Origin: Chordicoccus furentiruminis
GTDB taxonomy: Bacteria; Bacillota; Clostridia; Lachnospirales; Lachnospiraceae
Length of the DNA stretch: 64,000 bases
Assembly: GCF_019355395.1 (NCBI RefSeq)
Contig: NZ_CP048829.1
Coordinates: forward strand, 372,001 to 436,000
Direction of reading: 5' to 3'
Positions 8,222 through 59,294 of the stretch are shown in pieces. The notes beneath the pieces were generated by a model. It ran no database searches and was not told where the DNA came from. It worked only from the letters and a program-made list of their open reading frames with translations. How positions within the stretch are numbered: the first letter of the stretch is position 1; every line of letters starts with the position of its first letter. Position numbers and translations under genes: made by a program.

Positions 8222-8245
8222 GACAATCACCTCCCATGAAATTTA

Positions 8246-13090: not shown

Positions 13091-13163
13091 ATAGCGGATA
13101 AGGGCCACAGTTTCATTCCTACCTGTGAAAATCCATTTCATTGGTGATCACTCTTTCGAGCCG

Positions 13164-13587: not shown

Positions 13588-13612
13588 CAAAAATACAAAG
13601 GAGGTACTCATT

Positions 13613-14229: not shown

Positions 14230-14256
14230 TGAGTTCTTTTTCTTACTCATCTCCCT

Positions 14257-14351
14257 TCAGTACCGATACGTCGGATTGCTATCCTCTCTCCTCGTCTTCC
14301 TGTCATGGCATCTCTTGCAGAGCGCCTGCCAGTTCGATCTGTCCCAGAAGC
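14257..14351 (-). pseudogene. HNH endonuclease, C-terminal fragment
   Basis: The minus strand reads GFWDRSNWQALCKRCHDRKT and ends SNPTYRY-stop. NWQALCKRCHDRKT is the C-terminal half of the HNH motif in phage HNH nucleases, normally encoded just upstream of the small terminase. An in-frame stop precedes the fragment, and the IS66 end starts 9 bases further on, which removed the rest. Confidence 0.7.
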
Positions 14352-34588: not shown

Positions 34589-35588
34589 CTACCTTTCCTC
34601 CTCCAGGTAAAATCACGCCATTCGCGTTCTTCTTTCTCTCTGCTTGAGATGCTTCCAACGCTTCCTGGCCAATCTTCCAGCTCTCATCAGCGACAAATTC
34701 TTTTTCCTCAGGTGTCAGAAAACGCCGCCAGCATTTGTAATGACTGTTTTTGAAAGCACTGAGCCGCCTCACTCGATCGAAAACCTCACGAGTCACAATT
34801 GGTTCATGATGGCCTTCCAGATAATAGCTTGGGCGCTGACCGTCATTCGGCTTTGATTTCCCATTAATGACATACCTTTTTCCTGTCAGCACATCGCCCT
34901 TGAAGGCTTCATGCCGCAACATGCGATAGACTCTCGATGGAGTCCACTTTGTGTCCGTTCCTTCTGCCTTCTCCATTTCATTAAGCGCAGCGCTGATTTC
35001 TTCTCCGTTATGAACTCCTGCCGCCATCCGGAATGCAAGCCGGATTCGTTTAGCTTCTTCCTCCATAATCCCCCAATCTGCATCCTTATTCAGCCTGCGA
35101 TATCCATACGGAGGCTGTCCTGTTGGGTGTCCTGTTGCATGGCGGAGTTCAAATCCCAGCCTGACATTCTCTCCGTAAGACCTGCTTTCCTCCTGCGCAA
35201 TGATGCCAAGAATGTGAAGAAGGAGTTCCGTGCTGCGGTCCATGGTGTTAAGGCATTCCCTTTCAAAATAGACACAAACCCCAAGGCTTCTGAGTTTTTG
35301 CACTACCTCTACCAGGTCGGCAATGTTACGGGCAAAGCGTGAAACTGATTTTGTGTAGATCACCTCGATCTTTCCCGCTTCACAATCCCTGATCATTTTC
35401 TGAAATTCAGGACGTTTTTCTGCAAACCGACCGCTCTTTCCATAATCCCCGTAGCAACCGACAAACTCAAGTTCCGGATCTTCTTTGATCATGTTAATGA
35501 AGTACTCTTTTTGCAGAATAAAGGATCCTTCCTGTTCTTCCCTGTCGGTGCTTGTCCGCACATAACAAGCGGCTTTTGTCTTTGCCAT
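34563..35588 (-). CDS. Large serine recombinase 3 (first of three), without zinc ribbon
   Basis: A 341-residue serine recombinase: AACYVRTSTDREEQEGSFIL (Ser13), YTKSVSRFARNIADLVEVV, QEESRSYGENVRLGFELR, then a recombinase domain (PYGYRRLNKDADWGI...). It ends after a basic tail and lacks the Cys-rich zinc ribbon of the other two, so it may be an accessory or directionality partner. AAAGGAGCAAATT precedes the ATG. Confidence 0.88.
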   Translation of the reverse strand: MAKTKAACYVRTSTDREEQEGSFILQKEYFINMIKEDPELEFVGCYGDYGKSGRFAEKRPEFQKMIRDCEAGKIEVIYTKSVSRFARNIADLVEVVQKLRSLGVCVYFERECLNTMDRSTELLLHILGIIAQEESRSYGENVRLGFELRHATGHPTGQPPYGYRRLNKDADWGIMEEEAKRIRLAFRMAAGVHNGEEISAALNEMEKAEGTDTKWTPSRVYRMLRHEAFKGDVLTGKRYVINGKSKPNDGQRPSYYLEGHHEPIVTREVFDRVRRLSAFKNSHYKCWRRFLTPEEKEFVADESWKIGQEALEASQAERKKNANGVILPGGGKVDGRKRKED

Positions 35589-39044: not shown

Positions 39045-40295
39045 TTAAGCGGGTACAAGCTTAAATCCCAGTTTGGTGGCTTCGGATTTCAACTTCTGCT
39101 TACGTCTCTCTTCTTGATTTTTCTTTGTTTGCTCATAATGCTCCTCGGAGTATTCCTCTCCACTCGTTAAGAGATTCCAGATAATAACAAGCAACTTCCG
39201 TGCAACAGCGATCAATGCCTTTTTGATTCCTCTGCGTGCTTTGAGCCGGTAAAACCAGTCCCGTAAGAAGAAATTCTTGCACCGTGTAGCCGCCCACGCA
39301 CATTGCACCATCACGCTTTTAATTCTTGGATTTCCCTTCGTGAGGCGTGCTGTTTTCTTCTTTTTGGCACTTTCGTTATCTCCCGGACATAACCCAGCCC
39401 ATTTGACGAGATGTCCTGCAGTTGGAAACATGGAAAGATCTGTCCCAAGTTCGGAAATAATAATCGTACTCGCACGTCTTTGAACTGCCGGAATGGTTTC
39501 AAGCAACTCTAAAGCAGGTTCGTATTTTCCAGCGTATTCGGATATGCGGTTTTCGACCTCTTCAATCTCCGAATCGCAGTTTTCTTTTACCTTTACAAGA
39601 TTCTTGAGAAAAAGTCGATCGTGATCGGATAGCTGCCCGGCCACAGCAAGCTGAACATCTTCCATCTTATTCCGGAGAGTACCTTTCAAACATTCATCAA
39701 CATCTGATGCCGTTAACTTTCCTTTTTCACAAAGCCTTTTTATCAACTGAATTCCGCTGACTCCGAAGATATCCGTAAGAATCGTTGAAAGTTTAAACCC
39801 GCACTGTTGCAGATATTTTTCAATCCGGTTTTTATGTCCGACCATTTCTTTTATCAGGATATCCCGGTAGCGTGTCCAGTCTCGCAGCTCTCGGATTTTT
39901 TTGGGTGGGATATAACTTGGTGCCAGGAGACCGGCCCTCAGGAGTGTTGCAATCCAGTGAGCATCTTTTATATCGGTCTTCTTGCCGGGTACATTTTTCA
40001 TATGGTGCGGATTGGCGACAATGATTTTGACATTTTTCTGCTCGTCGTCATCGTAGAGAATTGATTCCAGCACGTTATAAATCGGAAACCAATAGACTCC
40101 GGTGCTTTCCATCGCCACATGTCGACAGTTGTTCTCAATGATCCATTTCTTGAATTCATCAAGACCATTGAGCAGTGTTGGAAATTCACGGATTTCAGGT
40201 TCTGGCTCTTCATCCAGTCTGCCTTTCAGCAGGCAGGCAACAAGAACTTCCTTGTGAACGTCCAGGCCACAACAGATGTCCAGAAGATTTTGCAT
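39045..40295 (-). CDS. IS110-family transposase (DEDD), copy 2
   Basis: Residue-for-residue identical to copy 1: ATG at 40295 (MQNLLDICCGLDVHKEVL), DEDD domain with AMESTGVYW and KKTDIKDAHW, C-terminal Transposase_20 domain with WAGLCPGDNESAKKKK. Upstream noncoding DNA (40296-40555) carries the same candidate bridge RNA fold (stem arms 40394-40404 and 40465-40481). Identity of the two copies means at least one moved recently or gene conversion keeps them equal. Confidence 0.93.
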   Translation of the reverse strand: MQNLLDICCGLDVHKEVLVACLLKGRLDEEPEPEIREFPTLLNGLDEFKKWIIENNCRHVAMESTGVYWFPIYNVLESILYDDDEQKNVKIIVANPHHMKNVPGKKTDIKDAHWIATLLRAGLLAPSYIPPKKIRELRDWTRYRDILIKEMVGHKNRIEKYLQQCGFKLSTILTDIFGVSGIQLIKRLCEKGKLTASDVDECLKGTLRNKMEDVQLAVAGQLSDHDRLFLKNLVKVKENCDSEIEEVENRISEYAGKYEPALELLETIPAVQRRASTIIISELGTDLSMFPTAGHLVKWAGLCPGDNESAKKKKTARLTKGNPRIKSVMVQCAWAATRCKNFFLRDWFYRLKARRGIKKALIAVARKLLVIIWNLLTSGEEYSEEHYEQTKKNQEERRKQKLKSEATKLGFKLVPA

Positions 40296-40360
40296 AGACG
40301 GTCCTCCCTTCAAATGTGTAATTGACAGGGCGGATGTACTCCGGTGATATTGAATTATAC

Positions 40361-40491
40361 TACGCGTGCTATTCCTGAAATGCATAGGCAGATCAGGGCG
40401 ACATGTTCCTGTGCTCCAGAATACATCGAACCATGATCACTCACGATTTCTGAGAATCAGATGTATGTCGATCTTGCCCTGTATTTTCAGT
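40361..40491 (-). ncRNA. Candidate IS110 bridge RNA region, copy 2
   Basis: Same sequence and fold as at 12960-13090 in copy 1. Guide loops not assigned. Confidence 0.45.
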
Positions 40492-42427: not shown

Positions 42428-44545
42428 TTATAGAAGCAAAGTTTCAAGGAATGCTACAAACCTCGGCGCAAGTATGGCGTGACCGTTCTCGTCCGGATGA
42501 CATCCGCCGCCGTCGTCTCTTGTATAGAACAGTTCACGAAAAGCAGCCTCCCACGGGCGCAGATTACTGCAATGGTAAAGGTCGAGGCACGGGATGCTCC
42601 TCCGTCTGCAAATCTCAACAATCGCATCGGAATACAGCGCCATATTGTTATTGGGATTTGAAGGGTTGCTGTTTGCCCAGGGACAAGGTGTCACGATGCC
42701 CAGGGGCTTGCCCGGAAACAGCTCATTATAACGATCAATCGTGGTATTAACGCATCCACAGAGAGTATCGGTTCCTGTGTCCGTGACCTCTCCAAGATCA
42801 GTCGCCAGATCGTTGCCGCTTCCATAGAAGGTGACCACGTCCGTATCTTCCGGGATTCTGTCAAGCAGCTGATAAAATGCCTTGTTATCCTCCCAGCGCC
42901 GCTTATAGCCGGAACCGGAAGACCCGAGATTGACTACTGTGATGCCTGTCTTCTCCGCCACATAATCATGATAGTTCTTCGTAGCACGGATGTTATGCTC
43001 CGTATGGCTATCTCCGATGGTGGCCCACTTCTTTCCATCCCACTTGAAGAACTCGCCTGTCAGCGTGCCCGTGATATTTCCAGACACATTTCCATCGATA
43101 CTGCCCTCAAAAGTGCCACTGAAGTTGCCCACAAAACCGCTACGGGTCATGCGCTTTACAAAACCAGTCAGGGTCGTGGGCATATAAGAGATTCTCAGGT
43201 AAGCGGCCCTGAGCGGAACAACAATCTTTCCATCAAATTCCGTTACAGGAGCGCCAACCTCTGAGACCAGCTTATCGATCATCTTTTCGTTGGCGTCGTA
43301 AAACACATAGACACAGTTGTTATAATGGCTGCAGGCAATGATGTGAAGCGGTTCCATCGGAGTAACGGGAATCATCTCCGAAACCTTATAATTATCACTG
43401 GGACGGACTAGGTCAGTAGGCACACCGGTTGACGCAGGAAGCACTTTGCTGCTGATGATTTCAAACTCCACATTTTCCTCTGTGTAGCTGTAATCATCGG
43501 AAATAAGCTCTTCCGAAGCGTGATCAAATGCCGCTTGCGCCTTTTCATTCAGGTATTCATAATCCTCCAAGAGCTCCCCAGTCAGCCTGTCCGTTGGGAA
43601 GATGAGCTTATTTACCACAGCTATCTTTCCAACGAACGTCGCTCCTTCAATCCAAGCGATCCTGAGCTTTGCGGCATTGATAGGGGCAACGACCAGTTTG
43701 TCGTAGATCTTCACAGGAGCCACTGTCGTGGTTTCAAGCTGCCCGGCCAGAAGATGGTCATTCTCGTCATAGAATGCGTAGAGCATCTTGTTGTAGTAGC
43801 CGCTTGCCGTAATACTATAGATATCACCCGGCTCGACTTCCACCGCATCAGATACGCGATACGCAGCTGTAAGGGTCTGCGCAATCGTAATCGCTCCGGT
43901 TTTCTCAATGACCGCGCATTCCGTGTATCCGTACTCGCAGGCTTCCGCTTCAACACCTTCTGCTGTTGCGAGGGCATTGCAAAGAGCGTCGTAATTTGTG
44001 ATCACCCGCTTTGTAACGGCGCGGATATGCTCTCCAAGGTTTTCATGGACTACATTATCCGTATCCACGCGGGCGTCCAGAACTTCCGTATCGGTTGTCG
44101 CTCCACCAACGATGCTGTCCATCCGAGCGGTCAGGGCAGCGCTGGTTGTGTTAAATGACTGCTTTGCCAGGTTCATCTCAGTCAGAGCGTCATCGGTCAC
44201 CTGATCCACATGAGACCTGGTATTTGCATTGTCCTGGGCAATGGTCTGCTCCGTCGCATCATTATCAGCCCTGATCGTTGCTTCCGTCGCATCATTATCC
44301 TCCAGGACCTGCCGAAGTGTTTCCGTCAACTGATCGGACACATTTTGGAGCTGCTGGCTGTAATCGCTGCTCTTCGCCCAAAAGGCGGTATCCGTAATGG
44401 CCGTTCCGGCAGGAACCTGCCGCTTTGCCATATAGCTGTCACCAGTTTCCGCATGGAGCACTACGGACAGCATTTCATACTCCTTGGTCTGTACCCACTC
44501 GCCGCAGGGCAGTGGGACGATCCGTTTTCCTACATATTTCGCCAT
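42428..44545 (-). CDS. Tail-tip protein with C-terminal SGNH hydrolase domain
   Basis: A 705-residue virion protein. Residues 1-200 are a conserved attachment module shared with the next upstream gene (MAKYVGKRIVPLPCGEW, EYEMLSVVLHAETG, then a coiled stretch of DNDATEAT repeats). Two related beta-rich units follow. Residues about 502-705 are an SGNH/GDSL hydrolase: IGDSHTEH (Ser513), SSGSGYKR, YGSGND (Asn578), GCHPDENGH (His683). The family deacylates or de-esterifies glycans, so it probably edits host surface polysaccharide during attachment. Its binding site is locked in a hairpin. Confidence 0.85.
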   Translation of the reverse strand: MAKYVGKRIVPLPCGEWVQTKEYEMLSVVLHAETGDSYMAKRQVPAGTAITDTAFWAKSSDYSQQLQNVSDQLTETLRQVLEDNDATEATIRADNDATEQTIAQDNANTRSHVDQVTDDALTEMNLAKQSFNTTSAALTARMDSIVGGATTDTEVLDARVDTDNVVHENLGEHIRAVTKRVITNYDALCNALATAEGVEAEACEYGYTECAVIEKTGAITIAQTLTAAYRVSDAVEVEPGDIYSITASGYYNKMLYAFYDENDHLLAGQLETTTVAPVKIYDKLVVAPINAAKLRIAWIEGATFVGKIAVVNKLIFPTDRLTGELLEDYEYLNEKAQAAFDHASEELISDDYSYTEENVEFEIISSKVLPASTGVPTDLVRPSDNYKVSEMIPVTPMEPLHIIACSHYNNCVYVFYDANEKMIDKLVSEVGAPVTEFDGKIVVPLRAAYLRISYMPTTLTGFVKRMTRSGFVGNFSGTFEGSIDGNVSGNITGTLTGEFFKWDGKKWATIGDSHTEHNIRATKNYHDYVAEKTGITVVNLGSSGSGYKRRWEDNKAFYQLLDRIPEDTDVVTFYGSGNDLATDLGEVTDTGTDTLCGCVNTTIDRYNELFPGKPLGIVTPCPWANSNPSNPNNNMALYSDAIVEICRRRSIPCLDLYHCSNLRPWEAAFRELFYTRDDGGGCHPDENGHAILAPRFVAFLETLLL

Positions 44546-44643: not shown

Positions 44644-44670
44644 CCCCCCCCCCGCTTTAGTTCGCTAAAG
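44644..44670 (-). repeat. G10 tract and UUCG-type hairpin between the two tail-tip genes
   Basis: Ten consecutive C at 44644-44653 (G on the coding strand), adjacent to CTTTAG-ttcg-CTAAAG (44655-44670). The only such homopolymer seen in the window. Confidence 0.85.
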
Positions 44671-44706: not shown

Positions 44707-47700
44707 TTACAGCGCCTCAATCTCGGCATCCAGTGCCTGCACTCGTAGCCGATACCAGTCGAGGATCTGGCTGAGGTTATTCGTATTCGTTCCGGGAATC
44801 AGAGGCCACCGTTCCACTTCCTTGTTCTGGATCGCACGAGGGATGTCCACCATGAAGTTCTCAAAGGTAAAGGCCACATTCTCCTCGCTCATTACACCGG
44901 CGCGGAGTTCCGCATACCGGGCTTTCAGCAGAGGACGCTTGTACTTGCGGAGCAAATACATCAGCTGATGCCCGTTGGCATAACTTTTGACTGTCGGGCT
45001 CATTGTTGCTTTGTTGTAGTACTTGCCTGTCCAATGATTGCCGAACACAGAGTCCATGTCGTAAGCTGTGAAGAACCATTTCACACCATCGTAGGTACTG
45101 ATGATATAGTTCTTGTCGGTCATATCACTTCCGCCCAGAAGGCACACAAAGAGGTAATAGTCAACGGCGCTGTCAAGGTCAACTTTGTCTGCCAAAGCAT
45201 CTACCGCCTCCTCACTGTCTGCCGCAAGGCAAGCGTCAATAAGGTTATTAAGGCTGTCAACTGCCCACTGGAAGTCCTCTTCATCAGGAACATACTTATA
45301 GGAGAAGTCTGATTCATCCACGATAGCATGACCCTTAAACTGGGTAGAAGTCGCGTGCGTATCTGCACAAAATACAGCCTGCGGAAGCAATGTTTCCTCG
45401 CCAGTCTCCGGATCAACCGTGCTTTCACCGATGCCAAAGAGATCTTCATCCTTCGGAGTATTGAGGGTATAAAGGCCATAGAACTCGCCATTGAGAAGCA
45501 TGATGCAGGGGAAACCGTCTATAGCACCACCATTTGGATATGGATACAGTCTCTCGTTTCTCACTGTTCTGCTCTTTACGATCTGCCCCCACAGTCTTGC
45601 ACAGACAATATTGCGAGCGTGTGAGAAGTCAATATAGTTGGCTTTCAGAACATATTTCTTCCTTTGACCCCATCCTTCTTTTGCCTCAAATTTCTGGTCA
45701 AACTTAACCGTGAAATTTTTCTTTGGATAGGAAAGCGATGAGCCGCCCTGCCATTTCATCGTGCAGGAACCGGAAAGGTCGCCATAGATATAATCAAACT
45801 TACCTGTTACATCCTTCGTCACCTCTTCCATAGAACCAGTCAGCTTCAGGACAGGAAGTCCAAAAGCCTCATAGTCCAAATCCTTAGTTCCTGAGGAATC
45901 CGCCATCATTTCGTTTTCACCGTAGATACCTTCCAGAACATAAAAGTGGAAAACATGGTGACTGAATACTTCATGGCCTGTGAGTTGGAGCGTCGCCTGA
46001 ATATAACCGTCCTCTTCCGGAGTAATGAACCCGTAGCGTTTATTCCGTACATGGAAGTAGTGCACGCTTCCATCCTGCCTCATTGCAGTCATAGCCGGAT
46101 AATTTACGAAATAAACCTGAAACATGGCTTCAGGATCTTCATCCGTGATTAGCACTGTGTAAGTTTTTCCGGCCTCCATAAAGAACGGCTCCGAATAGCG
46201 AAACGTTGGCATTCCGACCTCGCTGCCCAAATCACCATCCAAAACTGCCCCCGCTCGATCATGGGCTCCAACGGGCGCAGCTTTGATGGAGTACGTTCCC
46301 GTTGCTTCCGACTGAGCCCTGCTCCCACATGTTACAAGGTTCTTCCTTCGCACCCAGTCCTTCACACGAACCATATCCGAGACCGAATCCGCAATCTGAG
46401 TTCCACTTGCCATGCCCATGAACTCAGAACGGTCAAAGCGCCCTTTCACCACATAGGCATGAATTTCCTGATGATTCAGAATGGCATTCGAGGCATACAG
46501 GCCGACGCGATAACTGCCGCCGGTATCAGGAATCAGATAGGAAAACGGCTCACTCCGGACGCTGATGCCCCGGTTTACACCACCCTGCTGCAGCGCCACT
46601 CCTGACGGAGTATAGAAATACATGGAATAAGCTACCGACTGATCAGAAGAATCCAAGAAAACCGTATAGGTCTCCCCAGCCTCCAGGTCAAAGTAATCGG
46701 ACATCTGGATGACGCTGTGTCCTTCCGCTGCGCTCAGAGTACCGTTTACAACGCAGCCAGCAGGATCGTTCCTTCCAATCGGCACACAGGTGAGAACGAC
46801 TTCTCCACTTATATTTTTCTTTTCCAGCGGCATCATTTTGATCAGATTTCGCGCCCGGATCGCATCACAAATCGACTGCGCCTTAATGCTGTGAGAATTG
46901 AAGCTTTCTGCATCGGTTTCTGTCCGTCTGGCTTCTTCAGCTAGTTCCTCCCGGAGCACTCCCGCCGCCTCTTCCAGATTTCTTGCCGTCACCACACCTA
47001 CAATATCTTTCAGAGCCTTCTGCCCCTTTACCAGGTAAACATGGATCTTTTGGGCTTCAAAGCTCATATCCCTGGGAACACGGATGCGAAGGAAGACTGC
47101 ATCACTGGTATCAGGGACAAAACTCCCGTAAGGCATCGTCACCGCATTGAAGTTCACCGCCTGTCCGTTCATCGTGATTGTGGTGCTGTCAGTGGCCTTT
47201 CCGAACCACATCTGATAATCCAAGGATTTGTCGCTGTCCATATAGAACGTATACGCTTCTCCTGCTTCAAGTTCGATGGCTTCTGACAGAATGACATTGT
47301 TTTTCTCTACTGCCGGACCGAGAACGCCATTCAAAACCATTCCCGCATTATCAAGGCGATTCATTGGAGTACAGGAAAATAGCTTCTCGTCATCTGCGCT
47401 CCATGCATTATTAAGCCTTGAGATAACCAGGTTCTCTTTCAGAACTTCTGGCTGCACAAGCGCCATCGAGAGTAAAGTCTCCTTGTATTCTTCAAACGTA
47501 ATGCCGGAACGAATGTCCTGAAGAGTGTAATGCCCTTTCAGAACAATGAGACGGAGGGGATGATCGACAAAAGTACCGTCGTGGCAATAAATACCCGCCC
47601 GGTATTCGCCGCCCTCGTCCGGGGTGATATACCACAGAGGATAATTGATCACGCTCCTGCCAAGATTGACACCGTCCTGCTGCATCGCACCACCGCCGCG

Positions 47701-49608
47701 TTTGTAGAAATAGATTGAATAGTCTACGGTCTGCTTCTGGTCAAGGGCAAAGATGGTATATTCCTGTCCGGCTTCAAAAGAAGCAAAATCCGAAAAGTAA
47801 TGTGTTGTTCTCTGGATGGAATCACCGATATACCCGTTAAAAGTAACCATGGTCTTATCCGCGTCCGCGTCGCCGGTGCTGGTAATATAGATGTCTCCCT
47901 TCGTGTCGTAGGAAACTCTCGTCACCATGGAGAGGAGGCTCTGCTTACGTATCTCATCCCGTACCATGACTTCCGTTGCGATATTGGCAGAAGAAATGGC
48001 TTCTTTTCGTCGTCCTTCTTCATATCCCATATGCGAACGGATTTGTTCAAGTGGGACTGCGCCTTTCAGCAGATAAACCCTGAGCGGCTGCTCTTCAAAA
48101 TCGATTACATAGTTGGAATGGATTCTCACATGGTAGGTCTGGTCATCTGGTACGACAAACTGTCCATATGGGTTCTCCTCCATATGGAAATATAAAACGA
48201 CATCGTTGATTCGCATACCAGCACCTGCCGCATTGGCAAGAAGAATGCTGTAGATTTTTCCTGTACCGCCATCATCCGCATAGAGCGTATAGGTTTCTCC
48301 CTGTTCCAGTTCAAGGTCCTCGCTCAATCTCAGTATTGTCGATCCTGTTCCAAGAGACCCATTGATAATAATTGCCCCAGGATCAAAGTAACCGGCTTTC
48401 CGACCTTCGATCACTACATCGCCATCGCCATTTCTGGCTACACCGCTCCGCATCCGGATGATATTTTTCTCCCGAGCAAGATCCGAAACGTTTCCTAACG
48501 CTGTGAGTTCTTCCCTCATCTCGGAATAAGGAATGTAGGTCAGGAAATCAGAATCGGTGTACGTTCCTTCAAGCACATACAGTCTGAATTTGTAATCTTC
48601 AAAATTTGATCCATGGCTGTACAGACCAGCCACATAATCTCCCGATTCATCAGGAACAAAAGTTTGCACGGAGCAGTACAGCATGCTGAAAGATCGGTTT
48701 GAACCGTTTTCCCTCATAACCCCGCCGGAAACACCATAGAAGTAGATATTGGCATTCCCGGTTCTCTTCAAATCATCGAGGAACAGGGTGTAGGTTTTTC
48801 CTGCTTCGAGGGTAAGGGGCTCTGTGAATCTCAGTGTGTTTGCTCCGTAATCTTCGCCAAGCACACCGTTGACCACCGCTCTGGCCTCATCCGATTTCCC
48901 AATGGAGGAAACCCTGCAGATAGTAACACCGCCTGTTCCATTTACAGATGAATCCTTGACCTGGATAAGATTCTTCTGCCTGATCTCATCGGGAACAGAT
49001 ACCAGCACCTCACCGTAATCGAAGATGTTCTGAATATCCTCATCTGCTTTACGGATATGCTCACCGAGGTTAGCGTGGATTGTACCGTCCGCATCCGTCC
49101 TAGCATCGAGGATTTCCGTATCAGTGGTTGCCTGACCTGCGATACCGTTCATCCGTGCTGTCAGAGCTGCGTTGGTGTCGTTGATATTGGATACTGCCTC
49201 TTCCATATCGGCAAGAGACCGCGCCACTGCCTGATCCACATGCTGTTTAGTTGCCGTATTGTCATCCTTAACAGCCTGTTCCGTGGCGTCATTATCCTGC
49301 CGGATCGCCTGCTCTGTTGCATCGTTATCCTGACGGATAGCAGCCAGCGTATTGGCATTGTTCTGCGTGATCTGATTCTGCCGTTCCTCGAACTCTTCTC
49401 CCATATCCGCGATCTGCTGGGAAAACAGAGAGCAAATGGACCAGTAGTATTCATCGGTCAGAAGCGTGCCCGCCGGTACTACTCTCCGGGAGATATAGCT
49501 CTCGCCGCTGGCTTCATCCAGTACAATGGAAAGCATTTCGTATTCTTTGTTTTTCGTCCATGCGCCGCAGTGCTTAGGCACCACACGTTTGCCTACATAT
49601 TTCGCCAT
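44707..49608 (-). CDS. Giant tail-tip protein with C-terminal CotH kinase-like domain
   Basis: A 1633-residue virion protein. Residues 1-200: the same attachment module as the SGNH protein (MAKYVGKRVVPKHCGAW, KNNEYEMLS-like block, DNDATEQAIRQ coiled repeats). Residues about 215-1240: six diverged copies of a roughly 160-residue beta-rich unit, each with a KNLIxx start, a LEAGKTYTLFLDD block and a YVLKGxY end. Residues 1249-1633: CotH domain, with MKWQGGSSLSYPKKNFTVKF, AVDYYLFVCLLGG, MTDKNYIIS (Asp1498) and TAYDMDSVFG (Asp1517, Asp1519), the kinase-fold catalytic pattern. CotH proteins phosphorylate other proteins; the phage target is unknown. The stop of this gene is followed by the G10/hairpin region. 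Confidence 0.85.
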   Translation of the reverse strand: MAKYVGKRVVPKHCGAWTKNKEYEMLSIVLDEASGESYISRRVVPAGTLLTDEYYWSICSLFSQQIADMGEEFEERQNQITQNNANTLAAIRQDNDATEQAIRQDNDATEQAVKDDNTATKQHVDQAVARSLADMEEAVSNINDTNAALTARMNGIAGQATTDTEILDARTDADGTIHANLGEHIRKADEDIQNIFDYGEVLVSVPDEIRQKNLIQVKDSSVNGTGGVTICRVSSIGKSDEARAVVNGVLGEDYGANTLRFTEPLTLEAGKTYTLFLDDLKRTGNANIYFYGVSGGVMRENGSNRSFSMLYCSVQTFVPDESGDYVAGLYSHGSNFEDYKFRLYVLEGTYTDSDFLTYIPYSEMREELTALGNVSDLAREKNIIRMRSGVARNGDGDVVIEGRKAGYFDPGAIIINGSLGTGSTILRLSEDLELEQGETYTLYADDGGTGKIYSILLANAAGAGMRINDVVLYFHMEENPYGQFVVPDDQTYHVRIHSNYVIDFEEQPLRVYLLKGAVPLEQIRSHMGYEEGRRKEAISSANIATEVMVRDEIRKQSLLSMVTRVSYDTKGDIYITSTGDADADKTMVTFNGYIGDSIQRTTHYFSDFASFEAGQEYTIFALDQKQTVDYSIYFYKRGGGAMQQDGVNLGRSVINYPLWYITPDEGGEYRAGIYCHDGTFVDHPLRLIVLKGHYTLQDIRSGITFEEYKETLLSMALVQPEVLKENLVISRLNNAWSADDEKLFSCTPMNRLDNAGMVLNGVLGPAVEKNNVILSEAIELEAGEAYTFYMDSDKSLDYQMWFGKATDSTTITMNGQAVNFNAVTMPYGSFVPDTSDAVFLRIRVPRDMSFEAQKIHVYLVKGQKALKDIVGVVTARNLEEAAGVLREELAEEARRTETDAESFNSHSIKAQSICDAIRARNLIKMMPLEKKNISGEVVLTCVPIGRNDPAGCVVNGTLSAAEGHSVIQMSDYFDLEAGETYTVFLDSSDQSVAYSMYFYTPSGVALQQGGVNRGISVRSEPFSYLIPDTGGSYRVGLYASNAILNHQEIHAYVVKGRFDRSEFMGMASGTQIADSVSDMVRVKDWVRRKNLVTCGSRAQSEATGTYSIKAAPVGAHDRAGAVLDGDLGSEVGMPTFRYSEPFFMEAGKTYTVLITDEDPEAMFQVYFVNYPAMTAMRQDGSVHYFHVRNKRYGFITPEEDGYIQATLQLTGHEVFSHHVFHFYVLEGIYGENEMMADSSGTKDLDYEAFGLPVLKLTGSMEEVTKDVTGKFDYIYGDLSGSCTMKWQGGSSLSYPKKNFTVKFDQKFEAKEGWGQRKKYVLKANYIDFSHARNIVCARLWGQIVKSRTVRNERLYPYPNGGAIDGFPCIMLLNGEFYGLYTLNTPKDEDLFGIGESTVDPETGEETLLPQAVFCADTHATSTQFKGHAIVDESDFSYKYVPDEEDFQWAVDSLNNLIDACLAADSEEAVDALADKVDLDSAVDYYLFVCLLGGSDMTDKNYIISTYDGVKWFFTAYDMDSVFGNHWTGKYYNKATMSPTVKSYANGHQLMYLLRKYKRPLLKARYAELRAGVMSEENVAFTFENFMVDIPRAIQNKEVERWPLIPGTNTNNLSQILDWYRLRVQALDAEIEAL

Positions 49609-49611
49609 CGC

Positions 49612-50301
49612 TTAATCCTCCTCCTGATAGTACACAACGAGCCGCCCTTCCTCGTCCATGTCATAGACCAGGCCAAGTCGCTCATCTGTCTCGAAATTCA
49701 TATAACCGCTGTCATCGATGGAGCAATCCACCAGCACCTCGTGGACTCTTTCCACCGTTGCGGAATACGAGTCTGATCCAAGGCCGAGGCCGTCATTACT
49801 GTTGATGCCGAAGTACCCATCGTCTGTAATGAAGCACTCGAACACACCTAGGCGTACCGCCTCAGCCACAGCAGCATAGGTCGCTGTCAGAATCTTGCGG
49901 TTCTTGGTGGCTGCCCTCTCGACATAGAGGGTAAAAGAAAAGCTGCCGAGGATGTCCCCGTCAGCGTCGATCATGACCAGGTCAACTGGATAACGCCCGG
50001 AGACCTCCGTCATAAAGTCTGAGATTGTTACAATGATGCGGTTATTGACCACATCCACTTTGTCGTTATGCAGCGACTCTGTGCTGTACTGGAACAGCCG
50101 TCCATCTGGACGTGTCCCAGAGTAAGCCAGAATCACATTCGTCGGAATCGTGTATTCCACCGCATTGTTATAGAGGGCACATCGTACCTTCCGCGCCATG
50201 TGATCAAACTGTTTTACATGAACAACAGGAGGCACAAGGTGCTCTGTCAGGGAAAGCTCAATATCCTGATAAATGGATACAGCGCCGATATTGATCGCCA
50301 T
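49612..50301 (-). CDS. BppU-like baseplate upper protein
   Basis: A 229-residue protein: MAINIGAVSIYQDIELSLTE, KVRCALYNNAVEYTIPTNVI, RPDGRLFQYSTES and SDFMTEVSGRYPVDLVMIDA, typical of the N-terminal fold of BppU-type baseplate proteins of siphophages. It likely connects tail-tip proteins to the baseplate. It overlaps or abuts both neighbours (3 bases to the CotH gene, contiguous with the gene upstream), in one late operon. Confidence 0.75.
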   Translation of the reverse strand: MAINIGAVSIYQDIELSLTEHLVPPVVHVKQFDHMARKVRCALYNNAVEYTIPTNVILAYSGTRPDGRLFQYSTESLHNDKVDVVNNRIIVTISDFMTEVSGRYPVDLVMIDADGDILGSFSFTLYVERAATKNRKILTATYAAVAEAVRLGVFECFITDDGYFGINSNDGLGLGSDSYSATVERVHEVLVDCSIDDSGYMNFETDERLGLVYDMDEEGRLVVYYQEED

Positions 50302-52272
50302 TTAGCTGCTGCCTCCTTCCTCTCCCTCGCTGGGAGTTTCTTCGCCGCCGGACTCACTGCCTTCTTCTCCACCAGACTCGCCACCAGAATCATCACCGCC
50401 GCCTTCGTCTCCCCCTTCTCCGGGGTTATCCGGATCAGTTGGATCTGTAGGTGTATCCGGATCAGTCGGAGTATCTGGATCGGTCGGATCATCGGGCATC
50501 TCCGGCTCAAAACCAATATTGGCCCATTCAGTTCCATCCCACATGTGGAGCCGCATCTCGACAGAATCGATCCACAGGTCATGCAGTTCAGGGTTGGCTG
50601 GTGCTTCTGCCGCTCTCGTGATCAGATCCTGATAGATAATCGTCTGCCCTCCGCCTCCGCCGTGCAAGCCATCAAAGTCGATGATCGTTGTCCATGTCGT
50701 GCCGTTGTCGGTACTGACGGCAATGCCGTAATCTCCGGTCCGGTACTGACCGATCTTGATCAGCTTCGTGGCATCATTGGGAGCGACCATCACAATGGAC
50801 CCTCCGTCCCAGTAGAACTGATCCGTACCAAGGATCTTCACCAGCGCTGTCCGAAGGGTACCGGAGCCGAGGATGTTGGCATTAACGCCGACCGCTTCCA
50901 CTGCTGTTTTCACGACCTTGTCTGCTGTATCCCAGCCGAGCCGCCATGTCTGACCGCCGTCGTTGGAAACGAAGAATCCCCTGATGCCGCTCTTCCATGC
51001 CCAGGCTGAATCTTCCAGTCGTTCACTGGTGTGGGCATATCGGATTGTCGAGCCATCCTCCTCCACACCGGAGGAATAATGCAGGCCGAACAACCCGGAT
51101 GCCAGAGCATTGAAGTATTCCTGCTGCACCGTCAGCGTGCGCACATCCGTCACCTGCGTCTCCACCCGGTTAATCGCTTCCGTTGCCAGCTGCGCTTCAT
51201 CTCGAAGAGATCCCAGGGAACCGGACAAACTGCTGTTCCGGCTATAGACTGACGCATTGGAAAGTGTGATGCTCTTGTACCGCTCCAGTAGCACATCGTA
51301 CTCTGTCTCGGTGACCTTGCAACTGACTTCGATGCCAAGCTTTGAGATATACACATGGACCGTATCACAAAGGCTCACCCGCTCGGCTTCTGCAATATCC
51401 GCATAGCCAGGTGTCTGCCAGAGCTGCACAAAATCGATCTTGATGTCGATGTCCGGTTCCGTCAGGCTGGTATTTTTCAGGTAGGATTTTACGTAGTTTC
51501 GCAGTTGCGCTTCCGTCGGCTTTTCCTGAAACTGGCTGGTACAGTCCAGAACAGAGATCTTTTCAAACGGTCCGTCATGCTCGATGGTTACCACCTTCTC
51601 TGGCAGTTCAAAGAGCGTGCCGTCTTCTGAATGCTTCCAGTACGGATGCACACCCGTGATCATATTCTCTATGGATCGCTCCATCTCAAAATTGATCAGG
51701 TTTTTGCCGTATACGATCTTCACTCCATGATCGGCACCGCGATGTCCGTGGAGCATGGCCGTGTACATATCCCACTCATATTCGCCGCCGTAGGTGTCCA
51801 GCATGGAGCCGTCCATGCCGCCAAGGCATCCGCGCACCGTCGCCGGACTTGTAATCGTGAACGTGGCCTGTGAGTCGATATCTGTCCAGAAAGAAAATGG
51901 GCAGTCTGTTGTCGTATGGCTTTTCAGCGCTGCCATTGCTGCCTGACTTCCTACTGCCGAGAACGGGGAAACTGTGATGAAGTTCTCTTGGTACTGGATA
52001 TGCCGGGCAGCGACCTCCAAAATGCCGGAGAGAGGTGTCGTGATCTTATAGATCCGAAACGGCTGGAAGGTTGCCCGTTCACTCGGCTTTGCCAGAATAA
52101 TGTTCCCTTCCACCAGATCTTCCGCATGAAGCCCGGAGGCGGAGTACGTCATCTTCAGCTCATAGCTGCCGTTCCGCTTCTCTGTCACATAGCAGGATAA
52201 TGCATCGCAGAGCTTGCCGATGCCGTTGGTCGTGAAGGCTGTTTCTGTTTCGGTGTATAAACATGGAATCAT
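50302..52272 (-). CDS. Tail endopeptidase-like protein (Tal family)
   Basis: A 656-residue protein from the ATG at 52272 (MIPCLYTETETAFTTNGIGK), which overlaps the Dit stop in ATGA. The N-terminal two thirds is the prophage_tail (tail-associated lysin) platform: KRNGSYELKMTYSASGLHAE, ILEVAARHIQYQENFI, KIVYGKNLINFEMERSIENM. The middle continues with a coiled piece and WDGTEWANIGFEPEMPDD, then a low-complexity Asp/Pro/Thr and Gly/Glu/Ser tail. It forms the tail tip under the Dit ring. No separate lytic motif was recognised. Confidence 0.85.
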   Translation of the reverse strand: MIPCLYTETETAFTTNGIGKLCDALSCYVTEKRNGSYELKMTYSASGLHAEDLVEGNIILAKPSERATFQPFRIYKITTPLSGILEVAARHIQYQENFITVSPFSAVGSQAAMAALKSHTTTDCPFSFWTDIDSQATFTITSPATVRGCLGGMDGSMLDTYGGEYEWDMYTAMLHGHRGADHGVKIVYGKNLINFEMERSIENMITGVHPYWKHSEDGTLFELPEKVVTIEHDGPFEKISVLDCTSQFQEKPTEAQLRNYVKSYLKNTSLTEPDIDIKIDFVQLWQTPGYADIAEAERVSLCDTVHVYISKLGIEVSCKVTETEYDVLLERYKSITLSNASVYSRNSSLSGSLGSLRDEAQLATEAINRVETQVTDVRTLTVQQEYFNALASGLFGLHYSSGVEEDGSTIRYAHTSERLEDSAWAWKSGIRGFFVSNDGGQTWRLGWDTADKVVKTAVEAVGVNANILGSGTLRTALVKILGTDQFYWDGGSIVMVAPNDATKLIKIGQYRTGDYGIAVSTDNGTTWTTIIDFDGLHGGGGGQTIIYQDLITRAAEAPANPELHDLWIDSVEMRLHMWDGTEWANIGFEPEMPDDPTDPDTPTDPDTPTDPTDPDNPGEGGDEGGGDDSGGESGGEEGSESGGEETPSEGEEGGSS

Positions 52273-53051
52273 AGCGTCCACCACCTCGGTGTGATCTCCA
52301 CATGGTCTATCGCTCCGCTCCATGCGATATGGTTCTTGCCGGGTTTCAGATCCGGGAAGTCGTCGCTCTTCACATATCCGTTACAGAAGCCGGAAGCATC
52401 ATAGGCGTTGTGGGTCTCACAGTTCAGATCAATATAACCGTTGTTAGCAAGGATGCTGACTGACTGGTCGCCGATATACACGTTGCCAGCGCCGGAACCA
52501 TACACCCGGATCAGCGGCTTTGCCCGGAACTCAAACGGATTCTTGATCGTCGTTTCCTGTGTGAGCACCAGCTTCCGCTGTCCGTCCACGCTCCATCGTT
52601 GCGGCTGACAGTGAAAGGTCAGCTTCATGGTCGCGCCCTTATCCCGTTTCGGCTCAAAGGCAATCGCAGCCTTACAAAGCCCCATGCGGAAGAAGTCCGG
52701 GTCGTAAGTATCATGGAGGACCTGATATCCCACAGGCGACAACAGCCAGCTCTTTACGGAAGCTGTGCGAGCTGGAAGTCCATCAAAGAAGAAGGCATCA
52801 TAGGTAATGTCCAGATTCTTAAAGCGATGTTCCCCCGCCTTGGCGTTGTCCCTTACGATGTCGCCGTTCTTCCCAGGAACCGCCTGCAGCTCCATATCCA
52901 CCTCCGGGCTGTCATACACACCGGGAGCGGAAAGGTATAGGAGATAGTCTTTACTGTTCTTCCCGGCGAAGGTCAGATAGTTGCGGACGTATCGTGTTTT
53001 CAGTTCAAAGAGCGACATGTCTGAATCGCTCAGGATAGGCATTCTCTGCAT
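52269..53051 (-). CDS. Distal tail protein (Dit)
   Basis: A 260-residue protein from the ATG at 53051 (MQRMPILSDSDMSLFELKTR; AAAGGAGAAT upstream). LYLSAPGVYDSPEVDMELQA, AFFFDGLPARTASVKSWLLS and LHDTYDPDFFRMGL are the N-terminal Dit blocks; GNVYIGDQSVSILANNGYID is the C-terminal galectin-like part. Dit forms the hexamer joining tail tube and tip. It stands between higBA and the tail endopeptidase gene. Confidence 0.85.
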   Translation of the reverse strand: MQRMPILSDSDMSLFELKTRYVRNYLTFAGKNSKDYLLYLSAPGVYDSPEVDMELQAVPGKNGDIVRDNAKAGEHRFKNLDITYDAFFFDGLPARTASVKSWLLSPVGYQVLHDTYDPDFFRMGLCKAAIAFEPKRDKGATMKLTFHCQPQRWSVDGQRKLVLTQETTIKNPFEFRAKPLIRVYGSGAGNVYIGDQSVSILANNGYIDLNCETHNAYDASGFCNGYVKSDDFPDLKPGKNHIAWSGAIDHVEITPRWWTL

Positions 53052-53864: not shown

Positions 53865-56800
53865 TTACCTGCCCCACACCTTATCGTCCTCATTAAGCAT
53901 TTCGTTGATCCGCTGGACAACCGTGTCCGCCAGATCGTTGTCGTTCCTGGCGTTGTAGCCGTTGACCACAACTTGCACCGAGCCGATGGATCTATTGTTG
54001 TTTACCACAGAACCCCCGCTTCCAGCCCCCGCCACCGCAAGCTGTCCCGCGCTGATCTCCGGCAAAGCAAGCCCTGTAAAGGCACCGCCCACAGAGGACG
54101 CAAGCTCTCTCACAGAGGCAACCAGCACCTTGCTGCTCTTCCGGATGCCTTCGGCCATCAATTCCATGAAGTCCGGCATATACTCATCCGCATCGGAAAG
54201 TGGGCCTTCCTTCGGGATGGAGAAGCCGACAATGTTGCTGACGGCATTGGCCAGGTTGCTTGCTGCATTGGTCACACGCCATGCGTTGTTATTGATGCCG
54301 CTTGCCATCTCAATACAGATATCCGCGCCCCAGCTGTATGCCGAGTTGGAAATACCGCCCAGGATGGAACTGCAGCTGTTGGCGATCGCCGTGCACGCAT
54401 TGGAGACGTTGGTCTTCATCGTATTCAGGGCATTGGTCATATTGGTATTGGCCGTTGCCATCTTTGTGCTGACTGTGTTCGCTACTGCTGTCAGGCCATC
54501 GCTGAAGCTGGTCTTGATCGCCGTCATGGCGTTGGTCACAGCAGTTTTGATATCATTCAGCGCCGTGGTGATCGTCGTTTTGATCGTTGCCCAGCTCGTG
54601 GTCGTGTTGGAGACCACTGCCGTCCAGGTGTTGGCGATGGTGTTTTTGATCACTCCCATAGCCGTATCCACCGAGGAACGGATTGCCGTCAGCGCCGTAG
54701 TGATGGTCGTCTTGATGCTGTTCCAGCTTGTCGTAGTATTGGAGTTTACCGCCGTCCAGGCATTGGCAATCGTGTTCTTGATGACGCCGGTTGCCGTGGT
54801 GACCGTACTCCGCATGGCTGTACAGGTCGTGGTGATGGTCTGCTGCATCTGCTTCCACATGGAAGAGGTGCTGTTGCCGGTTCCCGTCCAGGCTGTAGTC
54901 ATCACCTTTGTGATGGCCGAACCAACCTGGCTGATGCCGCTCTGCATCTTGGAAAGCTGCTGCGTCACCACCTGCCCGATCTGGTTCCAGCTCTGAGTGG
55001 TTGCCGTCTGCACCTGCGTCCAGGCCGTCCGAACAGCTGTGGTTACCTGCGTTGCAGCCGTGGTCGTGCTCTGGGCAATCTTCGTCCAGGCATTGGTGTA
55101 GGCTGTCTGCACTGCCGTCATACTGTTGGTGATGGAGTTACTTAGAGTCGTGCTCAGGCCGTTCGCCGCCGTTTCCACCAGAGACACGTTACTGCTGATG
55201 CCGTTTGCCAGATTGCTCATAAAGTCAGGCATCCAGCTCTGCATATCCGCCAGCGGTCCCTCATCCGGCACAGAGAAGTGCAGGAAGTTTCGGATCGCGC
55301 TTGCCACTGAAGATACAGCGCTCGTAACCGTCCCGATGGCTCCCCGGATACCGGAGGCAATGTTGCTCACCAGATCGGAGCCCCAGGAAGTCGCCGAAGA
55401 GATCACATTGGTAACAGCAGTCTTCGCATTATTGAAGCCGTTGGTGATGGCTGTTTTAATGCTCGTGATTTTGCTGGAAATGCTGGTGGCCATGCTCTGG
55501 AATCCGTTTACGACAGAGGTCTTCAGATTGGTAACGGTCGTGGAGACTGAAGTTTTGATATTGCTCCATGCCGTGGAGACAGATGTCTTGATTCCATTCA
55601 CCGCCGTCGTGACGGAAGTCTTTATGCCATTCCATGCCGTGGTCACGCTGGTTTTCAAGCTGTTCATCGTCGTGGTCACGCTCGTCTTCAGACTGTTCCA
55701 TGCCGTCGTTACGGCAGTTTTTAGGCCATTGACAGTCGTGGTAACAGAAGTTTTCAGCCCTGTCCATGCCGTAGAGACAGCCGTTTTCAGCGCCGTAGTC
55801 GCGGTTGTTACAGCAGTCTTCAGTCCGTTCCAGACGGTTGTTACCGTCGTTTTGATCGCATTCACAGTCGTGGACACAGCTGTCTTCAGTCCGTTCCATG
55901 CCGTCGTTACTGCTGTTTTTGTCCCGTTGGTGACTGTTGTAACCGTTCCCTTTATCGCATTCCAGACAGAAGTGATTACAGACTTAATCGCATTGACTAC
56001 CGTTGTGACAGCCGTTTTTATTCCATTCCAGACATTGGTGACGGTCGTTTTTATAGCATTAACGACTGTAGATACGGTCGTTTTAATTCCGTTCCAAGCC
56101 GTCGTGATGGCCGTCTTCAGTCCATTCACAATCGTCGTCACCGTAGATTTAATGCCGTTCCAGACCGTTGTGACGACTGTCTTTATGGCATTCACTACCG
56201 ATAAGACAACGGTTTTAATCGTGTTCCAGGCGTTGGAAATCGCAATCCGGATGCCGGTCATCACAGTTGTAACCACGGTTTTTATGGCGTTCCATACTGT
56301 GGAAATCACAGTCTTTATGCCATTTACCGTATTGGTAACCACGGTTTTGATCGTATTCCATACCGTGCTGATCACCGTGCTGATTCCGGACATTACAGTA
56401 GAAATGATCGTCTTTATGGCATTCCATACGGTTGTGATAATGGTCTTGATCGTGTTAATGATCGTAGAGATCACCGTTTTGATCGCGCCCCACACAGTCA
56501 TCTGCCCCGACTTTATGCCATTGGATACAGAATCCACCGTTCCCTTAATGGCATTCCAGATCGTCGTGATGATGGTTTTAATCGTATTGACTACCGTAGA
56601 AATCACCGTTCTTATGGTGTTCCACACGGTTGTAATTACAGTTTTTATTCCATTCACAACGGTTGTGACATTGGCCTTGATCGTATTCCATACCGTGCTG
56701 ATGGTCGTGGAAATCGCGCTCATAACCGTAGAAATCACGGTTTTTATCGTGTTCCATACGATGGAGATATGCGTCTTAATCCCATTGACCACGGTTGTAA

Positions 56801-59294
56801 CCGTCGTTTTAATTGCCGTCCATACCGTAGAGAAAATCGTCTTGATTCCCTCCAGTACAGAAGAGAAAAAGCTCTTGATGCCGTTCCATACGGTCGATGC
56901 CGTTGTTTTAATTCCCGTCCATGCCGTGGAGAGCCAGGTCTTGATGGCCGTCCATACGGTTGTGAAGGTCGTTTTGATTCCGGTCAGCGTATTGGAGAAG
57001 AACGTTTTTATAACATTCCATACGGTTGTCGCCGTCGTCTTGATCCCTGTCCAGGCATTGGAAAGCCAGGTGGAGATCGCCGTCCATACGGTAACCGCTA
57101 CGGTTTTGATTCCATTCAGGATTCCGGAGAAAAACGTCTTGATGCTGTTCCAGGTATTGACGAAGAAGGTCTTCACGCTCGTCCATACCGTATCCCAGTC
57201 CGTGCCGAACCAGGACAGGAATACATCCGCCACGCCCTTCAGCGCATTCAGCACCGTGGAGAAGATGGATTTAATCCCGTTCCATATCGAGGAGAACAGG
57301 CTCTTTACCGCTTCCCATGCTCCGGACCAGTTGCCCTGGAAGAGATTGCTGAAGATATCGAAGATATTGATCAGCGAATCAAGAACTGTGCCCAGCACAG
57401 TTGCGATCACCTGAAATGCGCCTTCAAACAGCGGGGCCAGCACCTGACAGAAGCCATCCCATACCGCCTTCAGCACCTCGGTGATGTTTTTAAAGTCAAA
57501 GCCGAGGGCATTCAGCCTGTCGGTGATGGCTTTCCCGAATTCCTGGAACTTGGCCTTCACGCTCTCCCAGATCGCCGTGATCTTATTGCGGAACTCCTCG
57601 TTGTTTTTCCACAGGCTCACAAAAGCCGCCGCAAGGACAGCAATGACCGCAACCACCGCTCCGATGGGGCTGGTCAGTGCGGCGAAGGCTTTCTTGAGCA
57701 AGCCTCCCATACTGCCGACCTTCTTCATGGCTTTCGCGATCTTCGTAAAGCCCTTCATGGCCGATCCGACCGTGGATACCGTTTTGCCCAGCACCACCAG
57801 CAGCGGACCGATGGCAGCCGCCAGAGCCGCCACCTTCAGGATCGTTTTCTTCTGCGCTTCACTCATGTTGTTGAGCTTGTCCACAAAGGCCTGTACCTTG
57901 GAGACTACCGCGCGGATAGCAGGCATGAGCAGCTCACCGAAGCTGATCGCCAGCTCCTCCAGCTGGGATTTCAGAATGGTCAGCTGTCCTTTCAAGTTGT
58001 CCTGCATGGTTGCAGCCATGCTTTCCGCTGTACCGTCGCAGTTTTCGATTGCAGAAGACAGCTTGTCGATATCCTCCGGAGCCGCGTTCATCAGGGCTAG
58101 GAATCCGGACATGGCGTTCTTGCCAACCAGAGATTCAGCGGCAGCAGCCGCTTCCGATTCGGAAAGGCCGGAAAAGGCCACACGGCAATCTGCCAGAATA
58201 TCCGACAGATCCCGCATGGAGCCATCTGCATTGGAGGTCTGGATCGTGACTTCACCGATATTCTTTCCGGCGATCTTCACTTCACCGGCGAGGTTGTTCA
58301 TGATGGTACGAAGGGATGTACCTGCCTGGCTTCCCTTGATCCCGGCATTGGCCATCAGGCCGATCGCCTCTGCTGTATCCTCTGCAGAGAAACCAAGAGC
58401 GCCCGCGATAGGTGCAGCATATTTGAAGGTCTCGCCCATCATGGAGACATTGGTATTCGCGTTGGAGCTTGCCGCTGCCAGAATGTCTGCAAAATGGCCG
58501 GAGTCAGAAGCGGAAAGCCCAAATGCCGTCAGGGCGTCCGTCACGATATCTGAGGTCGTCGCCAGATCTTCACCGGACGCAGCCGCCAGGTTCATGATGC
58601 CTTCAATACCGTCCATCATGTCGCCAGTCTTCCAGCCTGCCATGGCCATGTACTCAAAGGCCGACGCGGCTTCTGTCGCGGAGAATTTGGTCTTGGCTCC
58701 CATCTCACGGGCTTTCCCGCGCAGGTCATCCAGATCTTTCCCGGTTGCTCCGGAGATGGCTGCCACCTTGGACATGCCCTCGTCAAAATCCGCAGCAGTC
58801 TTCACCGCCGCCGTACCGAGCCCCACGATGGGAGCCGTCACATGGGTGGTCAGGGTCTTTCCCACAGAGGAGATCTTCTCGCCGACCTGTTGGAATTTGC
58901 CGCCCACCTCTTCGATCTTGGCAAGGGTTGCGTTGGTGGTAGATGCCTGGGACTCCAAGGATTTCAGCTGCTGCTCCGTCTCCTGGATCTCGCGCTGGAG
59001 CGCATCATACTGCTGCTGGGTGATCTCCCCTTTCTGCAGCTGTTCGTTTGCCTGCTCCGCCGCCGTTTTCAGTGTGGCCAGTTTCTCCTTGGTATCCTTG
59101 ATAGCCTGGGCGAGAAGCTGCTGCTTCTGCCGGACCAGTTCCGTGTTGGAGGGATCAAGCTTCAGCAGCTTTTCGACATCCTTCAGCTGTGTCTGGGTGC
59201 TCTTAATATCCTTGTTAACACCTTGCAGCGCTTTCGAGAGTTTCGTGGTATCGCCGCCGATTTCAACGGTGATTCCCTGAATTCTGCCAGCCAT
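53865..59294 (-). CDS. Tail tape measure protein
   Basis: An 1809-residue protein that fixes tail length. N-terminal coiled coils (about 20-115; STQTQLKDVEKLLKLDPSNT), then the TP901-1 core (about 140-400; AGWKTGDMMDGIEGIMNLAA, TTSDIVTDALTAFGLSASDS, AGIKGSQAGTSLRTIMNNLA). Hydrophobic segments near 540-570 (ALTSPIGAVVAVIAVLAAAF) suit membrane passage during DNA injection. Residues about 680-1280 are some 25 repeats of a 22-residue TVWNxIKTxVTTVVNxIK unit. Several amphipathic Trp/Ala segments and a beta-rich C-terminus follow. GGAGGGAT precedes the ATG. Long open frames on the opposite strand here are shadows of the repeats. Confidence 0.95.
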   Translation of the reverse strand: MAGRIQGITVEIGGDTTKLSKALQGVNKDIKSTQTQLKDVEKLLKLDPSNTELVRQKQQLLAQAIKDTKEKLATLKTAAEQANEQLQKGEITQQQYDALQREIQETEQQLKSLESQASTTNATLAKIEEVGGKFQQVGEKISSVGKTLTTHVTAPIVGLGTAAVKTAADFDEGMSKVAAISGATGKDLDDLRGKAREMGAKTKFSATEAASAFEYMAMAGWKTGDMMDGIEGIMNLAAASGEDLATTSDIVTDALTAFGLSASDSGHFADILAAASSNANTNVSMMGETFKYAAPIAGALGFSAEDTAEAIGLMANAGIKGSQAGTSLRTIMNNLAGEVKIAGKNIGEVTIQTSNADGSMRDLSDILADCRVAFSGLSESEAAAAAESLVGKNAMSGFLALMNAAPEDIDKLSSAIENCDGTAESMAATMQDNLKGQLTILKSQLEELAISFGELLMPAIRAVVSKVQAFVDKLNNMSEAQKKTILKVAALAAAIGPLLVVLGKTVSTVGSAMKGFTKIAKAMKKVGSMGGLLKKAFAALTSPIGAVVAVIAVLAAAFVSLWKNNEEFRNKITAIWESVKAKFQEFGKAITDRLNALGFDFKNITEVLKAVWDGFCQVLAPLFEGAFQVIATVLGTVLDSLINIFDIFSNLFQGNWSGAWEAVKSLFSSIWNGIKSIFSTVLNALKGVADVFLSWFGTDWDTVWTSVKTFFVNTWNSIKTFFSGILNGIKTVAVTVWTAISTWLSNAWTGIKTTATTVWNVIKTFFSNTLTGIKTTFTTVWTAIKTWLSTAWTGIKTTASTVWNGIKSFFSSVLEGIKTIFSTVWTAIKTTVTTVVNGIKTHISIVWNTIKTVISTVMSAISTTISTVWNTIKANVTTVVNGIKTVITTVWNTIRTVISTVVNTIKTIITTIWNAIKGTVDSVSNGIKSGQMTVWGAIKTVISTIINTIKTIITTVWNAIKTIISTVMSGISTVISTVWNTIKTVVTNTVNGIKTVISTVWNAIKTVVTTVMTGIRIAISNAWNTIKTVVLSVVNAIKTVVTTVWNGIKSTVTTIVNGLKTAITTAWNGIKTTVSTVVNAIKTTVTNVWNGIKTAVTTVVNAIKSVITSVWNAIKGTVTTVTNGTKTAVTTAWNGLKTAVSTTVNAIKTTVTTVWNGLKTAVTTATTALKTAVSTAWTGLKTSVTTTVNGLKTAVTTAWNSLKTSVTTTMNSLKTSVTTAWNGIKTSVTTAVNGIKTSVSTAWSNIKTSVSTTVTNLKTSVVNGFQSMATSISSKITSIKTAITNGFNNAKTAVTNVISSATSWGSDLVSNIASGIRGAIGTVTSAVSSVASAIRNFLHFSVPDEGPLADMQSWMPDFMSNLANGISSNVSLVETAANGLSTTLSNSITNSMTAVQTAYTNAWTKIAQSTTTAATQVTTAVRTAWTQVQTATTQSWNQIGQVVTQQLSKMQSGISQVGSAITKVMTTAWTGTGNSTSSMWKQMQQTITTTCTAMRSTVTTATGVIKNTIANAWTAVNSNTTTSWNSIKTTITTALTAIRSSVDTAMGVIKNTIANTWTAVVSNTTTSWATIKTTITTALNDIKTAVTNAMTAIKTSFSDGLTAVANTVSTKMATANTNMTNALNTMKTNVSNACTAIANSCSSILGGISNSAYSWGADICIEMASGINNNAWRVTNAASNLANAVSNIVGFSIPKEGPLSDADEYMPDFMELMAEGIRKSSKVLVASVRELASSVGGAFTGLALPEISAGQLAVAGAGSGGSVVNNNRSIGSVQVVVNGYNARNDNDLADTVVQRINEMLNEDDKVWGR
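55450..57240. repeat. 66-bp/22-residue repeat array in the tape measure gene
   Basis: Roughly 25 diverged units with a Trp about every 22 residues (VWNAIKTVISTV, VWNGIKTAVTTV). Third-position differences between units show age rather than recent slippage. Confidence 0.85.

Follow-up and report, generated by a model that had tools for sequence, protein, structure and literature searches.

In Bacillus, CotH is a kinase that retains the counterparts of the protein kinase A residues D166, N171 and D184 and holds the adenine between Tyr142 and Trp245 (PMC12189002), and B. subtilis CotH mutants in Asp228 and Asp251 are inactive (PMC7821199). In Clostridia, the function of secreted and cellulosomal CotH proteins has been left unsettled in the literature (PMC12484212). 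For phages, CotH has been mentioned as one of the target domains of retroelements (PMC4159848), CotH domains fused to variable lectins have been named as unstudied (PMC8008677), and a GenBank record names a CotH protein of a Klebsiella phage. Beyond such passing mentions, we found no description of CotH as a general module of fibre tips in the open-licence literature. Here, we describe a prophage tail fibre of Chordicoccus furentiruminis that ends in a CotH domain, encoded in a stretch of 64,000 nucleotides of contig NZ_CP048829.1 (hereafter the window), and compare it with its viral and cellular relatives.

The fibre gene occupies positions 44707-49608 of the window and encodes 1633 amino acids, in agreement with the open reading frame reported in an initial annotation, which had omitted the strand; this is the minus strand, stop codons being crowded on the plus strand across the same positions. 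The stretches which that annotation had singled out, KWQGGSSLSYPKK, TDKNY (D1498) and YDMDS (D1517, D1519), were found at the residue numbers it gave. The protein starts with an N-terminal anchor (residues 1-60, MAKYVGKRVVP...; 49429-49608, minus strand) that is common to a neighbouring fibre with an SGNH hydrolase tip. Over approximately 190 amino acids, this start aligns with 54% identity to the start of the product of that neighbouring gene and with 72% identity to a gene on L136, a contig of a Clostridiales metagenome-assembled genome. The anchor is followed by a coiled coil as predicted from its residue pattern (approximately residues 61-150, QDNDATEQAIRQDNDATEQA...; 49159-49428) and by six tandem beta repeats of about 170 amino acids (residues 208-1235; 45904-48987), which are 22-33% identical to the first repeat. 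A single repeat was modelled as a beta sandwich (pLDDT 85.9) of CBM4/22-like jelly-roll type, with carbohydrate-binding modules of families 4 and 22 as its top structural matches (Z 7-8); since even the best of these, a CBM4, is borderline (Z 8.2), the resemblance of the six repeats to carbohydrate-binding modules is suggestive. The remainder, from approximately residue 1250 to 1633 (44710-45861), is the CotH kinase-fold domain that forms the C-terminal tip.

Profile, structure and gene context give good support to the assignment of this C-terminus to the CotH family, with a predicted kinase fold. PF08757 is the only Pfam domain in the fibre (residues 1287-1625, E 2.6e-24, 86.8 bits against a cut-off of 23.8) and is covered from model position 4 to 321 of 322; an NCBIfam search of the fibre returned nothing useful. 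The AlphaFold model of the tip, built from an input alignment with 37 viral relatives, has a pLDDT of 92.1 and a pTM of 0.90 and superposes on the B. cereus CotH kinase 5jd9/5jda, one of which was solved with Mg/AMP, over 331 residues (Z 33.8, 2.8 A), compared to a Z of 12.2 or less for other kinases; Foldseek likewise matched the model to 5jd9 (E 4e-17). The CotH pattern of the initial annotation is thus real, and the structure prediction and superposition it had proposed as a check return the CotH fold. The whole fibre protein has no phmmer match in the PDB, and a profile built from phage CotH domains matched 5jd9 as the sole PDB sequence. In this profile alignment, the FDGFVHN stretch of 5jd9 (D-x4-N) falls on Asp1495 and Asn1500 of the fibre (D166 and N171 of protein kinase A), forming the putative catalytic-loop motif (45109-45126), and WDYD falls on Asp1517 and Asp1519, an acidic pair of metal-binding type (45052-45060; D184 of protein kinase A). 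The spacing of 23 residues between B. subtilis Asp228 and Asp251 equals that of the two aligned B. cereus Asp residues, from which Asp228 can be inferred to match the catalytic Asp and Asp251 the metal-site Asp. The position of Trp245 is taken by another aromatic residue, Tyr1516, while sequence comparison gave no position for the counterpart of Tyr142.

Thirty-nine phage CotH representatives, less than 80% identical to each other and with a mean pairwise identity of 32%, share a number of invariant residues. Among them, Q1287, G1288, K1296 and N1298 belong to the QGGSSLSYPKKN loop (residues 1287-1298; 45715-45750), and others are K1322, D1327, D1483, D1495, N1500, D1517, D1519 and G1523. This corrects one detail of the initial annotation: Asp1498, which had been put forward as the catalytic residue, is an Asp in only 5 of the 39 representatives, and the invariant catalytic Asp is Asp1495. 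Of the ATP-site residues, the loss of which would have counted against a kinase, Asp1495, Asn1500, Asp1517 and Asp1519 are kept. Because the patterns with which the underlying loci were found included the KAN..D or YD.D motif of the site itself, a second scan was performed with the loop pattern QG..SS..YPKKN only. In this partly overlapping sample (42 representatives below 80% identity), D1495, D1517 and D1519 are kept in all 69 readable phage domains, one more open reading frame stopping short of the site; at position 1500, 66 of them have N and 3 have S, and position 1327 holds D or E. Pairwise dN/dS of the CotH part, estimated where a pair differs by more than two substitutions and dS is not saturated, ranges from 0.03 to 0.18, and the phage CotH domain is under purifying selection. 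An alignment of eight highly diverse phage CotH domains proved too divergent for scanning, and the CotH domain of the fibre as a single-protein query had no match in the viral contigs.

The fibre gene is part of a complete-looking prophage of siphovirus type that is read on the minus strand. Between the fibre and the tail endopeptidase/Tal-like protein (50302-52323, PF06605) lies a small tail-associated gene (49612-50301, phrog_16573), whose family also matches four upstream neighbours among the viral CotH loci; the tape measure protein is encoded at 53865-59294 (PF10145, phrog_1272), its gene containing tandem repeats of 33/66/132 bp at 55565-57152. The terminase subunits, portal and head protease follow within the next 16 kb, and head-tail connectors, tail terminator, tail tube, holin, endolysin and serine integrases are present as well, which agrees with the tail protein of the initial annotation. 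At 31854-35588 (minus strand), three large serine recombinases/integrases adjoin each other, and an IS110-family transposase (39045-40385, minus strand) is situated between the holin region and the endolysin. Open reading frames of equal 446-aa length were noted at 11644-12984 and, on contig L147, at 7258-8598 and 12984-14324. The sibling fibre (42428-44545, minus strand, 705 aa) carries an SGNH/GDSL hydrolase tip (PF13472, E 6.6e-15) on the same anchor, such that one phage bears two enzyme-like tips on one anchor type, and the two tips lend themselves to a paired comparison. The two fibre genes are separated by ten consecutive G (44644-44653, minus strand), a run that occurs once in the genome and could be a slippage site. 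Lying between the tail endopeptidase and the lysis genes, and combining a modular anchor with an exchangeable tip, the CotH protein has the arrangement of a receptor-binding fibre.

Many other phage fibres match CotH, as became clear from the search of phage tail proteins that the initial annotation had advised. Annotated examples include phages of Lactobacillus, Lacticaseibacillus, Klebsiella (P2-like) and Bacteroides as well as Bacillus phage G, and our own set comprises the best 80 of 109 confirmed CotH loci of an IMG/VR scan together with a few from another scan. Foldseek against viral models yielded more phage CotH proteins, mostly unnamed, and the main PHROG families covering phage CotH carry no function label. 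In most long fibre-like proteins, CotH stops a few residues before the C-terminus and the N-termini are unrelated: BppU_N was recognised in 3 of 39 CotH fibres and many N-terminal modules have no match. A subgroup from gut phages has CotH near the N-terminus, either in a short protein or ahead of a further 260-530 residues. The genes upstream of viral CotH belong to Prophage_tail (11), Sipho_tail, BppU_N, Baseplate_J and other tail families. Exchange can be seen in both directions, L087 and L090 sharing their tips on different anchors and L084 and L088 sharing their anchors under different tips. On L136, the related anchor is found in one gene, and the next gene, with another anchor, contains the start of a CotH domain that is 74% identical to that of the fibre. 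In Klebsiella P2-like phages of shared gene order, CotH may fill the slot after tail protein I, which on a related anchor is otherwise held by an endo-N-neuraminidase-like fibre or a beta-helix tailspike lyase, according to the record annotation. Across many unrelated phages, CotH recurs as a fibre tip that can be exchanged for others. Two of the IMG/VR CotH fibres were sought in E. coli genomes and had no match there.

The fibre CotH is the sole CotH in the 3.27-Mb host genome. Its nearest cellular relatives are found in gut and rumen Clostridia; they keep the same catalytic residues (35 of 35) and are mostly secreted. By a simple hydrophobicity count, a signal-peptide-like segment is present in 29 of 35 cellular and 1 of 83 viral rows, and both fit extracellular action. 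In a tree of 73 CotH domains, phage and cellular rows interleave and supported branches force at least four label changes, a count that is approximate because at least one row labelled cellular (L106, 6669-11395) looks like a prophage fibre: this CotH fibre gene has cellular genes around it and a recombinase behind it, and seems to be what is left of a prophage. The description of CotH proteins as secretory-pathway or spore-coat kinases in the initial annotation proved too narrow, given these mostly secreted relatives and a host without Spo0A: Spo0A_C is absent from the host genome, which is 98% complete, and was found in the B. subtilis control. A spore-coat role is ruled out on the same ground. 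Ser/Lys/Arg-rich stretches like those of the CotB/CotG substrates occur in the window in overlapping or antisense frames only, and not as a gene. A tip diversified by a retroelement was also ruled out, the nearest RVT_1 match being more than 100 kb away and CotH forming the C-terminus itself.

How such a tip would work can be read in several ways. We consider it very probable that the CotH domain is the tip of a host-recognition fibre, and the predicted fold with its intact site makes an enzymatically competent tip likely; action on a target at the host surface we find plausible, just short of an even call. The reading that joins these elements, a fibre of receptor-binding type with a competent CotH tip that modifies a host surface component or itself, is the one we favour over its rivals, although taken by itself it seems to us evenly balanced. 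It builds on the sequence, the predicted fold, the intact active-site residues, the tip position, modular exchange and purifying selection, and from these we infer presence in the virion, catalysis and a substrate. The anchor would attach the fibre to the tail, the six carbohydrate-binding-like repeats would act as a stalk contacting surface glycans, and the CotH tip, in the slot that esterase or depolymerase tips hold in related fibres, would engage a host surface molecule, where the Mg/nucleotide site would most likely catalyse phosphoryl (or nucleotidyl) transfer, the acceptor being either a component of the host surface or the tip. Against this reading stand the unplaced counterpart of Tyr142, the absence of a CotB/CotG-like substrate gene from the window and the borderline match of the repeats. 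ATP is scarce outside cells, which counts against extracellular catalysis by the tip and lends some weight to a kinase fold that serves as a receptor-binding domain without turnover, its metal site perhaps recognising phosphate-containing wall polymers. CotH indeed occupies the usual place of receptor-binding domains, and fungal CotH proteins are ligands of host cells (PMC9973265). We nevertheless hold pure binding to be unlikely: most surface positions vary and a pure binder would be expected to lose some active-site residues, but the catalytic Asp and both Asp of the DxD are retained in 69 of 69 domains that were not selected on them. The intact site across very different phages thus favours turnover over mere binding.

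Turnover might also take place before the virion is released. Bacillus CotH contributes to building the spore coat by phosphorylating structural proteins (PMC7821199), and a phage CotH, which without a signal peptide would fold where ATP is available, could similarly act in the cytoplasm prior to lysis, phosphorylating its own fibre or proteins of the virion. We regard this role in assembly as rather improbable, since CotH tips sit on unrelated anchors (siphovirus, P2-like and others) of phages that share no obvious structural substrate except CotH itself, the window has no Ser/Lys/Arg-rich partner gene and the cellular relatives are secreted. The tip position on unrelated phages points to a target outside the phage, or to the tip itself. 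The repeated exchange of CotH between cells and phages in the tree could finally suggest a captured cellular gene that is decayed or hitch-hiking and has no function in the virion, but this is very improbable, as it is contradicted by the conservation data: the low dN/dS of 0.03-0.18, the invariant active site and the fixed tip position.

Returning to a competent tip that modifies what it meets, its most specific form, in which a working fibre-tip kinase phosphorylates a host surface receptor on contact in several unrelated phage lineages, is doubtful. The shared kinase site, the tip position and the depolymerase-like exchange nonetheless make a new chemistry of phage-host contact a testable hypothesis, and suggest that binding may, in some phages, be accompanied by a chemical modification of the bound target. 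If true, a class of receptor-modifying enzymes would stand alongside depolymerases and esterases, and the phage CotH tips may hint at the role of the secreted CotH proteins that are widespread in gut bacteria.

Compared with the named systems, the fibre tip resembles B. cereus CotH (5JD9/5JDA) and B. subtilis CotH in the fold of nearly the whole domain, the D-x4-N motif and the DxD pair, the aromatic residue before the latter being Trp245 in Bacillus and Tyr1516 here. It differs from the spore-coat proteins in its low identity (16%), its fusion to a phage fibre, some invariant residues of phage CotH, such as Lys1322, that B. cereus CotH does not share, a host that lacks Spo0A and a window in which no CotB/CotG partner was seen. 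The CotH-lectin proteins of Bacteroides phages (hankyphage p00 type) also combine a CotH in the tail region with the invariant motifs, but in them a variable repeat takes the far C-terminal end, CotH lies further inside the protein and a reverse transcriptase is encoded close by, whereas our fibre ends in CotH and its prophage has no reverse transcriptase in the vicinity. The CotH of Klebsiella phage ST437-OXA245phi4.1 (Peduoviridae) is alike in its C-terminal position on a tail-fibre anchor, in a depolymerase slot; this phage is, however, a P2-like myovirus of a Gram-negative host, and its short fibre lacks the six repeats. The secreted and cellulosomal CotH proteins of Clostridia, the closest cellular kin, share the catalytic residues and are extracellular, and differ in having signal peptides and in not being tail proteins.
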